Virus record (IMG/VR): IMGVR_UViG_3300030085_000960
Location: 1 to 37,444 of that record
Reading direction: 5' to 3' (one strand)
From: a virus
Length of the DNA stretch: 37,444 nucleotides
Below the pieces are notes generated by a model that saw nothing but the letters and a program-made list of their open reading frames with translations, did not search any database and was not told the origin of the DNA. A program made the translations under genes and the position numbers. Shown in pieces: positions 15,851 through 31,932 of the stretch. Numbering within the stretch: position 1 is the first letter of the stretch; each line of letters starts with the position of its first letter.

Positions 15851-15872
15851 AAAAGGGGATTACTCCCCTTTT
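15851..15872 (-). terminator. Rho-independent terminator after the 83-residue gene
   Basis: AAAAGGGGA-TTAC-TCCCCTTTT forms a 9-bp perfect hairpin. Read leftward it begins 2 nt after the stop codon of the 83-residue gene (15875) and is followed by a T run, so it ends that transcript. The symmetric A/T flanks mean it may act in both directions. Confidence 0.75.
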
Positions 15873-15874
15873 GG

Positions 15875-16308: not shown

Positions 16309-16380
16309 ATGAAAAAACAAGACTTATCACCAATAGTATACATACTAATAATGATTTTTGCATTTTTAGTTGGAATGTAA
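16309..16380 (+). CDS. Tiny membrane peptide, 23 residues
   Basis: A 23-codon frame beginning MKKQDLSPIV, then a hydrophobic segment (YILIMIFAFLVG) that would span a membrane. It lies between the divergence point and the rightward promoter, with an A-rich leader typical of this genome, and its last codons overlap the -33 element of that promoter. Too short to judge by composition; its placement after a repeat operator and its hydrophobicity are the only support. Confidence 0.35.
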   Translation: MKKQDLSPIVYILIMIFAFLVGM

Positions 16381-16399
16381 TTAATTTTTATTAATTTTG
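16370..16399 (+). promoter_or_regulatory. Rightward consensus promoter
   Basis: TTG (16370-16372), a spacer of exactly 19 nt, then TAATTTTG (16392-16399): a full match to the Bacteroidota TTG-N19-TAnnTTTG promoter. Transcription would begin near 16405, leaving a ~300-nt untranslated stretch before the GroES-like gene. Confidence 0.8.
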
Positions 16400-16404
16400 C
16401 ACTG

Positions 16405-16660
16405 CAACATTATTCATCCCCCGGTAACCATAAAAGGGATTAGACATCGGATTGTAGTCTCAAATAGAGATAGAGTTTTCTCCGGTAGTTGCAAAAGAGT
16501 TAACGTATAAACTCTAGTTAGGATACAATGCACACAGGTAAGTGCGGTGAATTAACACCAGTTTTAGTATCCTTGGGTCCCGTAAAACGGAGCACTGCTA
16601 GAGTGAAATCACAACTTGAAAGAGAATTCCCAAGGGGGAGAGCTATATTTTCTCCGCAGA
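16405..16660 (+). ncRNA. Structured non-coding RNA or long leader, unidentified class
   Basis: Between the promoter at 16370 and the promoter at 16664 lies about 250 nt without a convincing gene but dense in pairing. Visible stems: ATCCC/GGGAT near 16416-16441; AGAC/GTCT (about 16442-16460); AGAGTT/AACTCT (16496-16501 with 16510-16515); AGGATAC/GTATCCT (16520-16526 with 16567-16573), which encloses GCAC/GTGC (16530 with 16542) and GGTG/CACC (16546 with 16556) as a three-way junction; CCGT/ACGG (16580 with 16587); CACT/AGTG (16593 with 16602); CCTTGGG/CCCAAGG (16571-16577 with 16629-16635); GGAGA/TCTCC (16637 with 16651). Two stems share bases 16571-16573, so they exclude each other. A CCGGTA-N5-AAAAG motif occurs twice (about 16421 and 16482). 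Confidence 0.55.
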
Positions 16661-16663
16661 TAT

Positions 16664-16695
16664 TTGGAAATGTAAAAAAATTGTGTATATATTTG
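16664..16695 (+). promoter_or_regulatory. Second rightward promoter, before GroES-like gene
   Basis: TTG at 16664-16666, 21-nt spacer, then TATATTTG at 16688-16695. It lies 19 nt upstream of the ATG and downstream of the structured region, so the GroES-like gene can be made independently of the structured RNA. Confidence 0.6.
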
Positions 16696-16713: not shown

Positions 16714-16983
16714 ATGAATTTTAAACCAAGCGGAACCTGGATAGTCCTTCCGGACCCAGTAATTACAGAAACAGAATCAGGAATAATATTAGATGAAGCT
16801 ACGGCTATGGAGAACTCTAAACGATCAAACGTTTTGGAGGCGCTAGCTGTTGGGCCTCATTGTAACTTTGTAGAAAAAGGTGACACTGTAATGGTAGATC
16901 CTAGATCAGAAGCTGCAAGAACAGAAATAGATGGTAAATTATACCTAATTATTTCAGAACATCAAATATTAGGTAAGTGGTAA
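16714..16983 (+). CDS. GroES-like co-chaperonin
   Basis: An 89-residue protein with the GroES fold pattern. It has an N-terminal strand (GTWIVLPDP), a mobile-loop region around residues 17-33 with SGIILDE in place of GGIVLTG, EALAVGP (42-48), GDTVMVDP (56-63) and a closing strand (LYLIISEHQILG). GroES caps the GroEL chamber; phages such as T4 (gp31) and RB49 replace the host cap to fold their capsid protein. It is the first late gene, upstream of the virion genes, and no GroEL is visible, so it probably works with host GroEL. The reading frame continues upstream to 16528 but that stretch covers structured RNA and the promoter; the ATG at 16714 gives the family's usual start and is used here. 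Confidence 0.85.
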   Translation: MNFKPSGTWIVLPDPVITETESGIILDEATAMENSKRSNVLEALAVGPHCNFVEKGDTVMVDPRSEAARTEIDGKLYLIISEHQILGKW

Positions 16984-17213
16984 CAGGACAAGTTACTCTA
17001 AGTTTAGAAGATTACCACACTTTACTAGAGGCATCTAAAAAGGCTGCAGAATTAAGACAAAACACTGAACTGTTATTAAAAGAGTTACAAGTGTTTTTGT
17101 CGTTTATGGCTACACGTGCAGAAATAGAGCCATATATAGTAGAGTTTAACAAGCAATCTAAGACATCTGTTATAGAAATAAACGGAGGTATTGCAAAAAT
17201 TAAAGAAAAATGA
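16977..17213 (+). CDS. Hypothetical coiled protein, 78 residues
   Basis: A 78-residue, mostly helical protein (LEDYHTLLEASKKAAELRQN then ELLLKELQVFLSFMATRAEI) with heptad-like Leu spacing. It starts at a GTG that overlaps the end of the GroES-like gene by 7 bp; no upstream ATG is available in frame. It is followed by the winged-helix-like gene with a 4-bp overlap. Function unknown; a small adaptor or oligomerisation unit fits. Confidence 0.55.
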   Translation: MVTGQVTLSLEDYHTLLEASKKAAELRQNTELLLKELQVFLSFMATRAEIEPYIVEFNKQSKTSVIEINGGIAKIKEK

Positions 17214-17539
17214 AAAGAAAGATAACAGTAACTATGGATACTACGTATAAATACGTACAATTATGGAATGGTATTTTTAATTTAACAGAAAAAGGTCTAC
17301 AAATACTGTCTGCATTTATAGATGTACAGATAATTACAGAAGAAGACAATTTTTGTAGTGTAAAAAACAAGAAAGAAGTAGCAAGAATAGTAGGTATTAA
17401 AGACTACAATACTTTAAATAATTATATTAAGAGATTTAAAGATAAAGGTGTAGTATCTAAAAAAGATAATAATTATAAATTAAATAATTTACTAAATCCT
17501 AATACATCTGCTGTAGAAATCATAATAAATAAAGGATAA
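17210..17539 (+). CDS. Helix-turn-helix protein, possible late regulator
   Basis: A 109-residue basic protein. Residues about 27-43 form a helix, then EVARIVGIKDYNTLNNYIKR (about 56-75) reads like a DNA-recognition helix-turn-helix with a following wing (KDKGVVSKKDNNYKLNN), the layout of MarR/Rep-type winged-helix proteins. It overlaps the previous gene by 4 bp and the next small gene shares its TAATG junction. Its place at the head of the late operon suits a transcription or partition regulator. The DNA-binding assignment rests on pattern only. Confidence 0.6.
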   Translation: MKRKITVTMDTTYKYVQLWNGIFNLTEKGLQILSAFIDVQIITEEDNFCSVKNKKEVARIVGIKDYNTLNNYIKRFKDKGVVSKKDNNYKLNNLLNPNTSAVEIIINKG

Positions 17540-17655
17540 TGAAGATATTTGAGCAGATAGTGCCGTCATATTTTGAGATAGGTGATATGGAGATTATAAT
17601 TTTACAAGATACTATGGGTAATTGTTTAACTATAAAAATTAATTATTATGAGTGA
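17539..17655 (+). CDS. Small protein, 38 residues
   Basis: A 38-codon frame (MKIFEQIVPS...ending KINYYE) that shares its TAATG start with the end of the helix-turn-helix gene and overlaps the following zinc-protein gene by 8 bp. It exactly fills the space between these two genes, which argues that it is translated. No family is recognised. Confidence 0.55.
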   Translation: MKIFEQIVPSYFEIGDMEIIILQDTMGNCLTIKINYYE

Positions 17656-17953
17656 TTCTGAAAAACCAGTAACACCATCATTGTTTAATATGATTAGTTC
17701 TTTTGCTAGAGATTTAAAAGAATATGTAAAACAAGGTGCACCAAATGTTACAACAGAAGATTATATAGAAAGATTAGAAGAATGCAATAGATGTGAGCAT
17801 TTAATAAGAGATAAAATGAGATGTGGATTGTGTGGATGTTTATTAGAACACAAAGCAAAGTGGAAAACAACTAAATGTCCAGACTTAAGATGGAAAACAC
17901 AAATATTAGATGGCGAAAGACAAGAAAGCGATAATACAAACGCTAGCAACTAA
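17648..17953 (+). CDS. Zinc-binding small protein
   Basis: A 101-residue protein with a Cys cluster typical of a zinc ribbon: CNRC (Cys46, Cys49), CGLCGC (Cys59, Cys62, Cys64) and a final Cys77 followed by Pro (KCPDLRW). The pattern CxxC...CxxCxC...CP..W occurs in many phages and bacteria as a small protein of unknown function. It overlaps the HU-like gene by 44 bp. Role unknown; nucleic-acid or protein binding is likely. Confidence 0.7.
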   Translation: MSDSEKPVTPSLFNMISSFARDLKEYVKQGAPNVTTEDYIERLEECNRCEHLIRDKMRCGLCGCLLEHKAKWKTTKCPDLRWKTQILDGERQESDNTNASN

Positions 17954-18131
17954 ATATAATTTACCTTTAAAAAAGGTAGAAGAAATAGTAAACCATCAGT
18001 TTAAGTTTGTAGAAAAGATAATGAAGAATGGAAAGTTTGAGATGGTACGATTACCATATTTTGGTAAATTTTCTGTAAACCCTAAAAGGGTAGAACATAT
18101 AAATAAATTAAAAGATGAGTCTGAGGGATGA
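17910..18131 (+). CDS. HU/IHF-like DNA-bending protein
   Basis: A 73-residue protein with the helical N-terminal dimerisation unit of HU/IHF (residues 1-40) and the start of the beta-saddle (VRLPYFGKFSVNPKRVEHI, about 46-64, matching the GFGTF..R region). The DNA-bending arms that normally follow are absent or very short, so it is a truncated version. Phages of the crAss-like type commonly carry IHF-like genes beside their packaging genes, which suits this location. It may shape DNA for packaging or for late transcription. It overlaps the zinc-protein gene before it and the next gene by 17 bp. Confidence 0.75.
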   Translation: MAKDKKAIIQTLATKYNLPLKKVEEIVNHQFKFVEKIMKNGKFEMVRLPYFGKFSVNPKRVEHINKLKDESEG

Positions 18132-18636
18132 TTTAATACATATAATAGATAACAGAGCTACACCTAGTGCATATGCATTAACTGTAAATGAGTTTAAAGA
18201 TTTAACAGTAGACGAGCTAGCTTTTGTATATTTTACAACAGATCATAAATCACCTTTTTCTGTATATGAGTGGGAACAACGTGTAATTGAAGTAAAAAAT
18301 AGTATATTTGGAAAAAACAATAAATTTAAACCAAGCGCAAAAGTTCTAGCAGCTTGTGAAAAATATGATAAATTAATTGAAACCTCAGCTGTTAGATTAC
18401 TACGAGCAGCAAGAGAATCTGTTATAAAACTAGAGAAGTATTTTAGAGATATAGATTTAACTTTAGTAGATGACAACGGAAGACCTATTTTTCATGCAAA
18501 AGACTTAATTAATAATTTAGAAAAAATGGGTAAAGTAGTAGATGGGCTTAGAAACTTAGAAGAGATAGTAAAGAAAGAAGAACAAGCCGCTAATACTAAT
18601 AGAGGAGGGATTGAAGTAAATAAATATAGTATGTAA
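18115..18636 (+). CDS. Unknown; possible small terminase subunit
   Basis: A 173-residue, mainly helical protein with a central part rich in charge (AAREScaffold-like helices; LRAARESVIKLEKYFRDIDL). It has no catalytic motif. It lies two genes upstream of TerL, where the small terminase subunit is usually found, and is of suitable length (140-190 residues). Position and size are the only reasons for the suggestion. It is coupled to the next gene through a one-base TAATG overlap. Confidence 0.45.
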   Translation: MSLRDDLIHIIDNRATPSAYALTVNEFKDLTVDELAFVYFTTDHKSPFSVYEWEQRVIEVKNSIFGKNNKFKPSAKVLAACEKYDKLIETSAVRLLRAARESVIKLEKYFRDIDLTLVDDNGRPIFHAKDLINNLEKMGKVVDGLRNLEEIVKKEEQAANTNRGGIEVNKYSM

Positions 18637-18935
18637 TGGATTTTTTAGAAGATTTAGCACTTTATGAACGAGCAATGCAAAATGCTTACATGTTGATAAC
18701 TAAGAAAAAAACTATTGATGACTTTTATTATGATTTAGAGAGTGATAGCATAGAGGATTTTCCTTTACCGTTTGATCCTCTAGAAACTGATGGTAGACAC
18801 ACAGATGTAATAGATGTTGTAATAGAATATTTTACAAGCACAGAAGAATATGAAAAATGTGCTGAGTTAGTTAAAATAAAAAATAAATGCTTAAAGAAAC
18901 AGACAGAGTCAGACCAGCCGCCATTAACTTTATAA
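18636..18935 (+). CDS. Hypothetical acidic protein, 99 residues
   Basis: A 99-residue acidic protein with a helical start (MDFLEDLALYERAMQNAYML) and an Asp/Glu-rich middle. Its ATG lies in the TAATG junction of the gene before, and its last 49 bp overlap the TerL start. No family is recognised. Its position between the possible small terminase and TerL suggests a packaging accessory. Confidence 0.55.
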   Translation: MDFLEDLALYERAMQNAYMLITKKKTIDDFYYDLESDSIEDFPLPFDPLETDGRHTDVIDVVIEYFTSTEEYEKCAELVKIKNKCLKKQTESDQPPLTL

Positions 18936-20851
18936 ATAATGGTTACTACACATCTGCACTTCCAGGCACTCGAGAGTACTATGAGTTTTGGGATGAAGAA
19001 CAAAACAGATGTATGTATGGTTATAAAGTAGGAGATTTAGAAATAACTGGATTTCATTACTTTTATCTAAACTATTGTCCTATTGATAGAGCTGTAGATG
19101 AGCTATTACCTGACGGTACAATGCAAGCAAAACGTGAGCGTACATTCCCTAGATTTTATGACGGAGATTATGAATATTTCCACGAGATAGATAAAGCAAG
19201 AGCAGCAAATAAACATATGATAGTTTTAAAAGCAAGACGTAAGGGATATTCTTACAAGGCTGGATCTATGCTTGCTAGAAATTACTTTTTTGTTAGAAAT
19301 AGTAAAAACTTTGTATTTGCATCTTCTAAAGAATTTTTAATTGGTGACGGACTACTCTCAAAAGCTTGGGAGTTTTTATCTTTTATAGATGATCATACTG
19401 CATGGTCTCAACCAAGATTACGAGATAGAGAAATGCACAAAATGTCTGGGTATAAGAAAAAAGTAAATGGAATGGAGATAGAAATGGGTATGAAATCCCA
19501 GATTATAGGTGTATCTCTAAAAGATAATCCAGATAAAGTAAGGGGTAAAGCAGGTGAGCTAGTATTTTTTGAAGAAGCAGGGTCTTTTCCTGGATTACTA
19601 AAAGCATGGGAGGTAACAATGCCAACAATGAGACAAGGTGCTAAAACATTAGGGATGATGGTAGCATTTGGTACAGGTGGTACAGATGGATCTGATTTTG
19701 AAGCTATGGAAGAAATATTTTACAATCCAGCAGCATATGATTGTATGGATTACGAGAATATCTGGGATGAAGGAGCTATGGGTACAAGATGTGGATACTT
19801 TATACCAATACAAAAAAACTTAGATGGATTTATAGATGATCAAGGCAATTCTATAGAAAAAGATGCTATAGAATATGAAGAAGAAATGAGGGAGAAGAAA
19901 AAAGGGGCTGCAGATGCAAAATCTTTAGACCAATATATAGCTGAGCACCCCTTCTCACCTCAAGAAGCAACACTACAAGTAACAGCTAATTTATTTGACA
20001 TTGCATCATTGCAAGAACAATATAATAATGTAAAAGCTAGAAATTTACAATCAATAGGTACTGCAGGGAGACTATATCACAATGAAAAAGGAGAAGTTAA
20101 GTTTAAAATAGATGGTGATCTAAAACCTATAACTAAATTTCCACACAGAAAAGATGATGATAAGACAGGAGCAATTATAATATACGAAGCACCATATAAA
20201 AATCAAGAACAACAAGTACCTTTAAATTTATATGTAATTTGTCATGACCCTTATGGTCAAAATCAATCAGCAGACTCTATGTCATTAGGATCTGCATATG
20301 TATTAAAACGACCAAACAATTTATCACATCCTGATGATATAATTGTAGCGTCATATGTAGGTAGACCACACTCACAAGATGATTATAATAGAAATTTGTT
20401 TATGTTAGCAGACTATTATGGATGTAAAATAGGATTTGAGAATGATAGAGGTGAGGTAATAGCATATGCAAAACGTTTTAGAAAAATGCATAAATTACAA
20501 GAAGAATTTGAGATGTTAGACAAAAAAGAACTAAGAAGTAAGAACGTAAAACGTCAATATGGTATGCATATGACAGAAGCAAGGAAGCGTCAAGGTGAGA
20601 TATATATAAGAGACTGGTTAAACACAGTTAGGAGTACGGATGAAACAGGAAAAAAATTATTAAATTTACATAAGATATATGATCCAGCTTTACTAACAGA
20701 ATTAATTAAATTTAATCACAGTGGTAACTTTGACCGTGTAATGTCTTTAATGATAGGCATGTATCATACAAGGGAATTGTATAACGCTGAAGTAAAAGAC
20801 ATCATAGAAGATAGAGCTACAGATAAGTGGTTCGAACAAAACTATTATTAA
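18887..20851 (+). CDS. Terminase large subunit
   Basis: A 654-residue packaging motor protein. The ATPase domain has a deviant Walker A, LKARRKGYSYK (about 114-124), and a Walker B, ELVFFEEAG (224-232), with the catalytic Glu next to it. The C-terminal nuclease domain has the RNase H-like acidic triad, seen as CHDPYG (Asp454), IGFENDRG (Glu518, Asp520) and a final Asp near DRVMSLMIG (about 633). The ARRKGYSYK-type Walker A agrees with crAss-like TerL proteins. It overlaps the 99-residue gene by 49 bp and is followed at 1 nt by the SET-domain gene. Confidence 0.92.
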   Translation: MLKETDRVRPAAINFINNGYYTSALPGTREYYEFWDEEQNRCMYGYKVGDLEITGFHYFYLNYCPIDRAVDELLPDGTMQAKRERTFPRFYDGDYEYFHEIDKARAANKHMIVLKARRKGYSYKAGSMLARNYFFVRNSKNFVFASSKEFLIGDGLLSKAWEFLSFIDDHTAWSQPRLRDREMHKMSGYKKKVNGMEIEMGMKSQIIGVSLKDNPDKVRGKAGELVFFEEAGSFPGLLKAWEVTMPTMRQGAKTLGMMVAFGTGGTDGSDFEAMEEIFYNPAAYDCMDYENIWDEGAMGTRCGYFIPIQKNLDGFIDDQGNSIEKDAIEYEEEMREKKKGAADAKSLDQYIAEHPFSPQEATLQVTANLFDIASLQEQYNNVKARNLQSIGTAGRLYHNEKGEVKFKIDGDLKPITKFPHRKDDDKTGAIIIYEAPYKNQEQQVPLNLYVICHDPYGQNQSADSMSLGSAYVLKRPNNLSHPDDIIVASYVGRPHSQDDYNRNLFMLADYYGCKIGFENDRGEVIAYAKRFRKMHKLQEEFEMLDKKELRSKNVKRQYGMHMTEARKRQGEIYIRDWLNTVRSTDETGKKLLNLHKIYDPALLTELIKFNHSGNFDRVMSLMIGMYHTRELYNAEVKDIIEDRATDKWFEQNYY

Positions 20852-28447: not shown

Positions 28448-28493
28448 CATAGGCATTAATTTGCGTCTATATATTGGTTTTTGATTAAGGTTG

Positions 28494-28549
28494 TGGGGAT
28501 TAATTTCCCCATGACTTTAGTCTTTAATCTAACTCCGTTAGGAGAGTTA
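28494..28549 (+). terminator. Tandem hairpins after the capsid gene
   Basis: First hairpin TGGGGA-TTAATT-TCCCCA (28494-28511), second TAACTC-CGTTAGGA-GAGTTA (28530-28549) followed by TTCTTTAT. Together they should end or attenuate the capsid transcript and give more capsid than connector message. Confidence 0.65.
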
Positions 28550-31908: not shown

Positions 31909-31932
31909 TATAGGGGGCACAGTCCCCCTATA
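31909..31932 (+). terminator. Rho-independent terminator after the 121-residue gene
   Basis: TATAGGGGG-CACAGT-CCCCCTATA, a 9-bp perfect hairpin with a 6-nt loop, followed by a T-rich stretch ending near 31945. It separates the abundant small virion gene from the surface-protein genes. Confidence 0.85.

Follow-up and report, generated by a model that had tools for sequence, protein, structure and literature searches.

Positions 16404 to 16649 on the + strand of IMG/VR virus record IMGVR_UViG_3300030085_000960, a marine phage sequence of 37.4 kb that was analysed as a whole and is here called the window, encode a structured non-coding RNA, as confirmed by homology and covariation. The RNA is a new class: it has no Rfam family, and no description of it was found in the open-access literature searched. 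Few viruses of the human gut are more abundant than crAss-like phages, and little is understood of how they switch from early to late genes. An undescribed conserved RNA gene exactly at the early/late boundary, with a likely relative in the cultured phage crAss001, makes this question directly testable, and it illustrates how well-sampled phage genomes can conceal structured RNA in 'empty' intergenic DNA.

The terminase, portal and major head protein of the window match crAss-type families, the nearest named relatives of the terminase being crAss-like phages with at most ~42% identity. Replication genes (polymerase, helicases, primase) occupy the - strand and structural genes the + strand. The RNA sits within the strand switch at ~16.1-16.7 kb, which is visible in GC skew too, and the first gene 3' of it is GroES-like (PHROG 3188; 16714..16983, +). 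A palindromic terminator-like hairpin, AAAAAGGGGATTACTCCCCTTTT, lies on the early side of the boundary (~15851-15874). The earlier note on this DNA had described a structured RNA of unknown class that is driven by a promoter and placed upstream of the late operon, with a separate promoter for GroES, and this description is borne out. Promoter P1, TTG-N19-TAATTTTG of the Bacteroidetes house-keeping type, is present as claimed at 16370-16399 (+) and is placed to drive the RNA. Upstream of the RNA, a -7 box TAnnTTTG occurs in 117 of 124 distinct homologues, 82 of which share one 5-nt spacing, and the full promoter pattern is found in 50 of the 124 compared with 1% of random windows. The second promoter, P2 (TTG-N21-TATATTTG; 16664..16695, +), belongs to the GroES-like gene, which has its own promoter no more than 75 nt upstream in 76/76 testable loci. 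Because of this promoter, much GroES mRNA can be made without the RNA.

A search with the GroES-like protein returned 80 viral loci (59-100% identity). An iterated nucleotide profile of 16400-16665 located the RNA upstream of GroES, always in the sense orientation, in 72 of them, at distances of about 64 to 2096 nt; in the other eight the contig ends too near GroES, leaving at most 370 nt of DNA before it. Two DNA-pattern scans enlarged the set, so that at least 125 distinct full-length sequences were aligned; the 5' pattern-scan loci L198, L214-L215, L217-L218, L220-L222, L226, L229 and L247 were discarded as chance matches in apparently coding DNA. A model of the 5' domain trained on marine sequences only (R1) recovered five distant members that were not in its training set (L206, L210, L223, L258 and L259; E 1e-12 to 1e-7), two of which, L210 and L223, have a gene for a crAss-type terminase further downstream. 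Run over whole records, R1 gave one strong match per large marine contig. When the RNAs of the window, L210 and L223 were compared with annotated phages by plain blastn, no homologue came up, and two exact-pattern scans of 84,980 bacterial and archaeal GTDB genomes found no copy of the RNA. The sole GTDB match, L260 in a Gammaproteobacterial MAG, is a chance match, and, as far as exact patterns reach, a host-derived RNA was rejected; a diverged host relative could escape such scans.

The statement that these ~250 nt hold no convincing gene also stands. In the window, the GroES frame also contains an ATG at 16528, which could be read as the start of a protein-coding upstream extension of that gene. 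Of 36 distinct loci, only 5 keep this 62-codon extension open and the other 31 break it, and the substitution pattern is that of RNA pairs; the coding reading is refuted, and its probability is close to nil.

The conserved core of the RNA (16404..16649) consists of two domains and a 3' tail that is likewise conserved, all on the + strand. The 5' domain (16404..16492) is a three-way junction formed by helices P1 (16404-08/16488-92), P2 (16417-20/16436-39) and P3 (16446-51/16481-86), with helix P4 and its AAATA loop (16458-61/16467-70) seated on P3. The 3' domain (16497..16617) is closed by helix P5a (16497-500/16614-17). Within it, helix P5b (16513-18/16597-602) closes helix P6 (16520-26/16567-73), which bears hairpins P7 (16530-33/16542-45) and P8 (16546-49/16556-59), and helix P9 (16576-81/16589-96) carries two bulges. 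The tail, AAGGGGGAGAGCTATATT at 16632..16649, has the consensus AAGGGGGA-A-CTATATC. About nine helices had been proposed from the window alone, including an AGGATAC/GTATCCT junction enclosing GCAC/GTGC and GGTG/CACC; ten, with this junction among them, are backed by the comparison of 46 homologues, which supplies the covariation in related phages that the earlier note had set as a check. The CCGGTA-N5-AAAAG motif that the note had recorded twice fared less well: its first copy is present but unconserved in relatives.

Across 46 aligned marine sequences the fold, with 50 pairs, is intact in 98.7% of cells, and 24 of the 50 pairs, including all pairs of helices P1 and P4, have changed on both sides. 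Both sides have changed in 217 cells, whereas shuffles give 61 such cells and slid partners 9-33, the slid control being partly favoured in that the fold was derived from the same sequences. A self-programmed tree-aware null, in which substitutions among 64 sequences were re-dealt along the tree, left eight pairs at E<0.05, all canonical and located in helices P2, P4, P6, P7 and P9. RNAalifold predicted 40 pairs for a mixed set, 20 of them with compensatory changes. A second subfamily has a 5' hairpin in place of helix P1 and an extra hairpin in helix P2; helix P3 runs through the series ATCGGA/TCCGGT, GTTGGA/TCCAAT and GTGGGA/TCCCAT. It should be noted that the folding energy of the window RNA alone is only modestly better than that of shuffles (z = -2.2); it is the comparative evidence that is decisive for the fold, and energy alone would be weak. 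In five loci (L072, L096, L132, L158 and L166) an insertion of ~50-70 nt replaces hairpin P4 and has conserved motifs of its own, GGTCAT-TGGCC and ACGCT...AAACG.

The suggestion of a switch operating through mutually exclusive stems did not survive this comparison. The window sequence does allow alternative stems, as a riboswitch or other conditional switch would need. However, the stem proposed to exclude another at 16571-16573, CCTTGGG/CCCAAGG (16571-16577/16629-16635), is paired in 84.5% of cells compared with 84.8% in shuffles, and its covariation is no better than that of shuffles. Only 74% of cells keep a local hairpin, GAGTT/AACTC, compared with 98.7% for the static fold. A conditional switch is therefore considered highly improbable.

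Likely relatives of the RNA also occur in gut crAss-like phages. The marine-trained R1 matches cr118_1 (E 3e-4) and cr111_1 (E 1e-3), in both cases in the intergenic DNA that leads into the first + strand (late) gene. A putative chaperonin comes after this first late gene in cr118_1, which parallels GroES in the window. A second model, R2, includes both phages, so that its strong scores there are circular, whereas those of R1 are not. R2 in turn matches cr128_1 (E 7e-3), which is absent from both training sets and whose hairpin TTCC-AAATA-GGAA is identical to hairpin P4 of some marine members. The cr111_1 RNA is 77% identical to that of cr128_1 over 79 nt and 91% identical to crAss001 over 34 nt only, at the crAss001 boundary just upstream of gp3. 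Motifs resembling the 3' tail were found by motif scan at the RNA 3' end in cr128_1 and crAss001. A gut pattern scan added members L300 and L301, and its hits L296, L298, L299 and L302 were rejected as chance matches. A TTG-N-TAnnTTTG promoter stands immediately upstream of the RNA in cr111_1, cr128_1, crAss001, L300 and L301; in crAss001 (MH675552) the scan places it at 627-658. Judged by these sequence matches, the RNAs of cr118_1, cr111_1 and cr128_1 are likely homologues; that of crAss001 is graded only as probable because no model, R2 included, matches crAss001 directly. No such RNA was recognised at the early/late boundary of p-crAssphage ZA or DAC15, or by model in phi14:2, cr60_1, Fpv1 and others, although a more diverged version may have escaped these searches. 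Near its boundary cr60_1 (NC_055891.1) has 1.5 kb of unannotated DNA (16800-18350) and an intergenic stretch (18922-19304) that R2 does not match; the unannotated stretch may hold other RNAs.

What follows the RNA differs between lineages and bears directly on its function. No intrinsic terminator was found within 200 nt downstream of it at any of 124 main-family loci, and read-through into the late genes is therefore likely. The distant members L206, L223 and L258 have the order promoter-RNA-terminator-new promoter, and in L210 a terminator after the RNA was seen by eye. At 11 loci the RNA is separated from GroES by a gene of about 240-350 residues; many such genes directly after the RNA (L036, L045, L031, L039, L048, L074) begin MLGLG and appear LamG/surface-like by eye. 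A small Cys-rich ORF, zinc-ribbon-like by eye, occupies the same interval in L017, L019, L023, L027, L030, L054 and L059. L127 and L151 instead have a small Cys-rich ORF that ends just 5' of the RNA, and a -7 box was not found there, so that in these two loci a longer transcript may be processed to yield the RNA. Among the gut members, cr111_1, cr128_1 and crAss001 have their first late start codon within tens of bases after the RNA, and a scan found no second promoter or terminator after it.

The reading we favour, with a confidence that is evenly balanced, is that of a non-coding RNA of fixed fold, which host polymerase makes where the late region begins and which acts in trans on a protein or machine. 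Host RNA polymerase would transcribe it at the early/late boundary from the house-keeping-type promoter, which is identified by sequence and conservation; production by this enzyme is suggested because it is believed to transcribe the middle and late genes of crAss001 (PMC8375218). The transcript, which carries no protein, folds into two rigid domains, as covariation shows, and this fixed shape would then bind a host or phage protein or machine in middle or late infection, polymerase and ribosome being the obvious candidates. Action in trans is inferred because GroES transcripts can bypass the RNA and because in several lineages it is set apart by a terminator or by whole genes. Further, its loops and joints hold long invariant stretches, which suggest a fixed three-dimensional shape for binding a protein or machine rather than pairing with variable targets, and inspection by eye showed no hypervariable stretch of the guide type. 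The RNA occupies a fixed site in one copy per genome, with a conserved fold, a conserved host-type promoter and no conserved frame; riboswitch, antisense RNA and pure GroES cis leader are all unlikely descriptions of it. The regulatory or host-targeting role in early-to-late control put forward in the earlier note would be compatible with the position and promoter. More tentatively, the RNA may be ancient and widely shared among crAss-like phages, crAss001 included, and may run the late programme by acting in trans on the host transcription or translation machinery. If this is true, viral regulatory RNAs would gain a new class.

The main competing explanation is a cis leader, in which the nascent RNA makes host polymerase resistant to termination along the late operon in the manner of the HK022 put RNA, or controls translation of the first late genes. 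In every case the RNA lies in the sense orientation on the 5' side of the late region, which a cis element would need, the main family lacks a terminator downstream, and the gut members cr111_1, cr128_1 and crAss001 have a leader layout; each of these observations counts against action in trans. Strong terminator-like hairpins lie within the late region of the window at 28483-28522 and 31909-31932 and bear on any antitermination model; the former, directly 3' of the major head protein gene, speaks for this one. However, the conserved second promoter yields GroES transcripts free of the RNA, and the late genes of L206, L223 and L258 are cut off from it by a terminator with a new promoter after it, even if an antiterminator could precede a terminator. 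The RNA is also much larger than put. A cis leader is accordingly regarded as rather unlikely, if a serious contender.

The put RNA of coliphage HK022, which works as a structured antiterminator (PMC9378689), shares with the present RNA its phage origin, its place at the 5' end of a transcription unit, a host-type promoter and a structured fold. The present RNA differs in being ~250 nt long and built of two domains, and in having a second promoter after it and, in some lineages, a terminator as well; no resemblance in sequence was seen. A put-type element is an upstream RNA acting in cis with no promoter that bypasses it, and the GroES promoter in every testable locus lowers the case for membership, while remaining compatible with a put-like action.

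The comparison with known RNA families returned nothing at a significant level. Rfam 15 gave no match over the window at gathering thresholds and only chance-level ones at E<=10, and five marine homologous loci together with L210, crAss001 and cr118_1 gave none at E<=1; the Rfam covariance search that the earlier note had asked for thus leaves the class undescribed there. No tRNA or tmRNA was detected in the window by ARAGORN or Rfam. Resemblances to rRNA and SRP RNA noticed by eye (GGATTAGA...GTAGTC; GGTC-hairpin-AGCAC) were dismissed as unconserved or without Rfam support.

GOLLD and ROOL have been linked to phages. A further alternative is that the RNA forms an RNA-only or RNP particle with a structural, packaging or decoy role, comparable to GOLLD/ROOL/OLE or the phi29 pRNA. 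RNA-only complexes of large structured RNAs are known (PMC12286853), and the strong conservation of sequence and fold, as well as synthesis beside head and packaging genes, would suit such a particle. GOLLD, ROOL and OLE are likewise large, ornate, structured non-coding RNAs (PMC12286853); the present RNA is smaller, matches neither their family models nor any other in Rfam, and is confined to crAss-like phages among the genomes searched. As it is also unrecognised in several related crAss-like phages, a particle is deemed improbable.

A Y RNA bound by Ro60 was considered because crAss001 carries a TROVE-domain early gene (PMC8375218). The idea was abandoned: PF05731 was found in 0 of 17 IMG/VR records searched, marine contigs that carry the RNA, 12 of which are 80-93 kb long, and there was no Rfam match. 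TROVE (Ro60-like) genes are present in two gut crAss-like phages, cr111_1 (MT774387.1, 77241-78038) and PhiCrAssBcn1 (OQ221536.1, 71373-71846).
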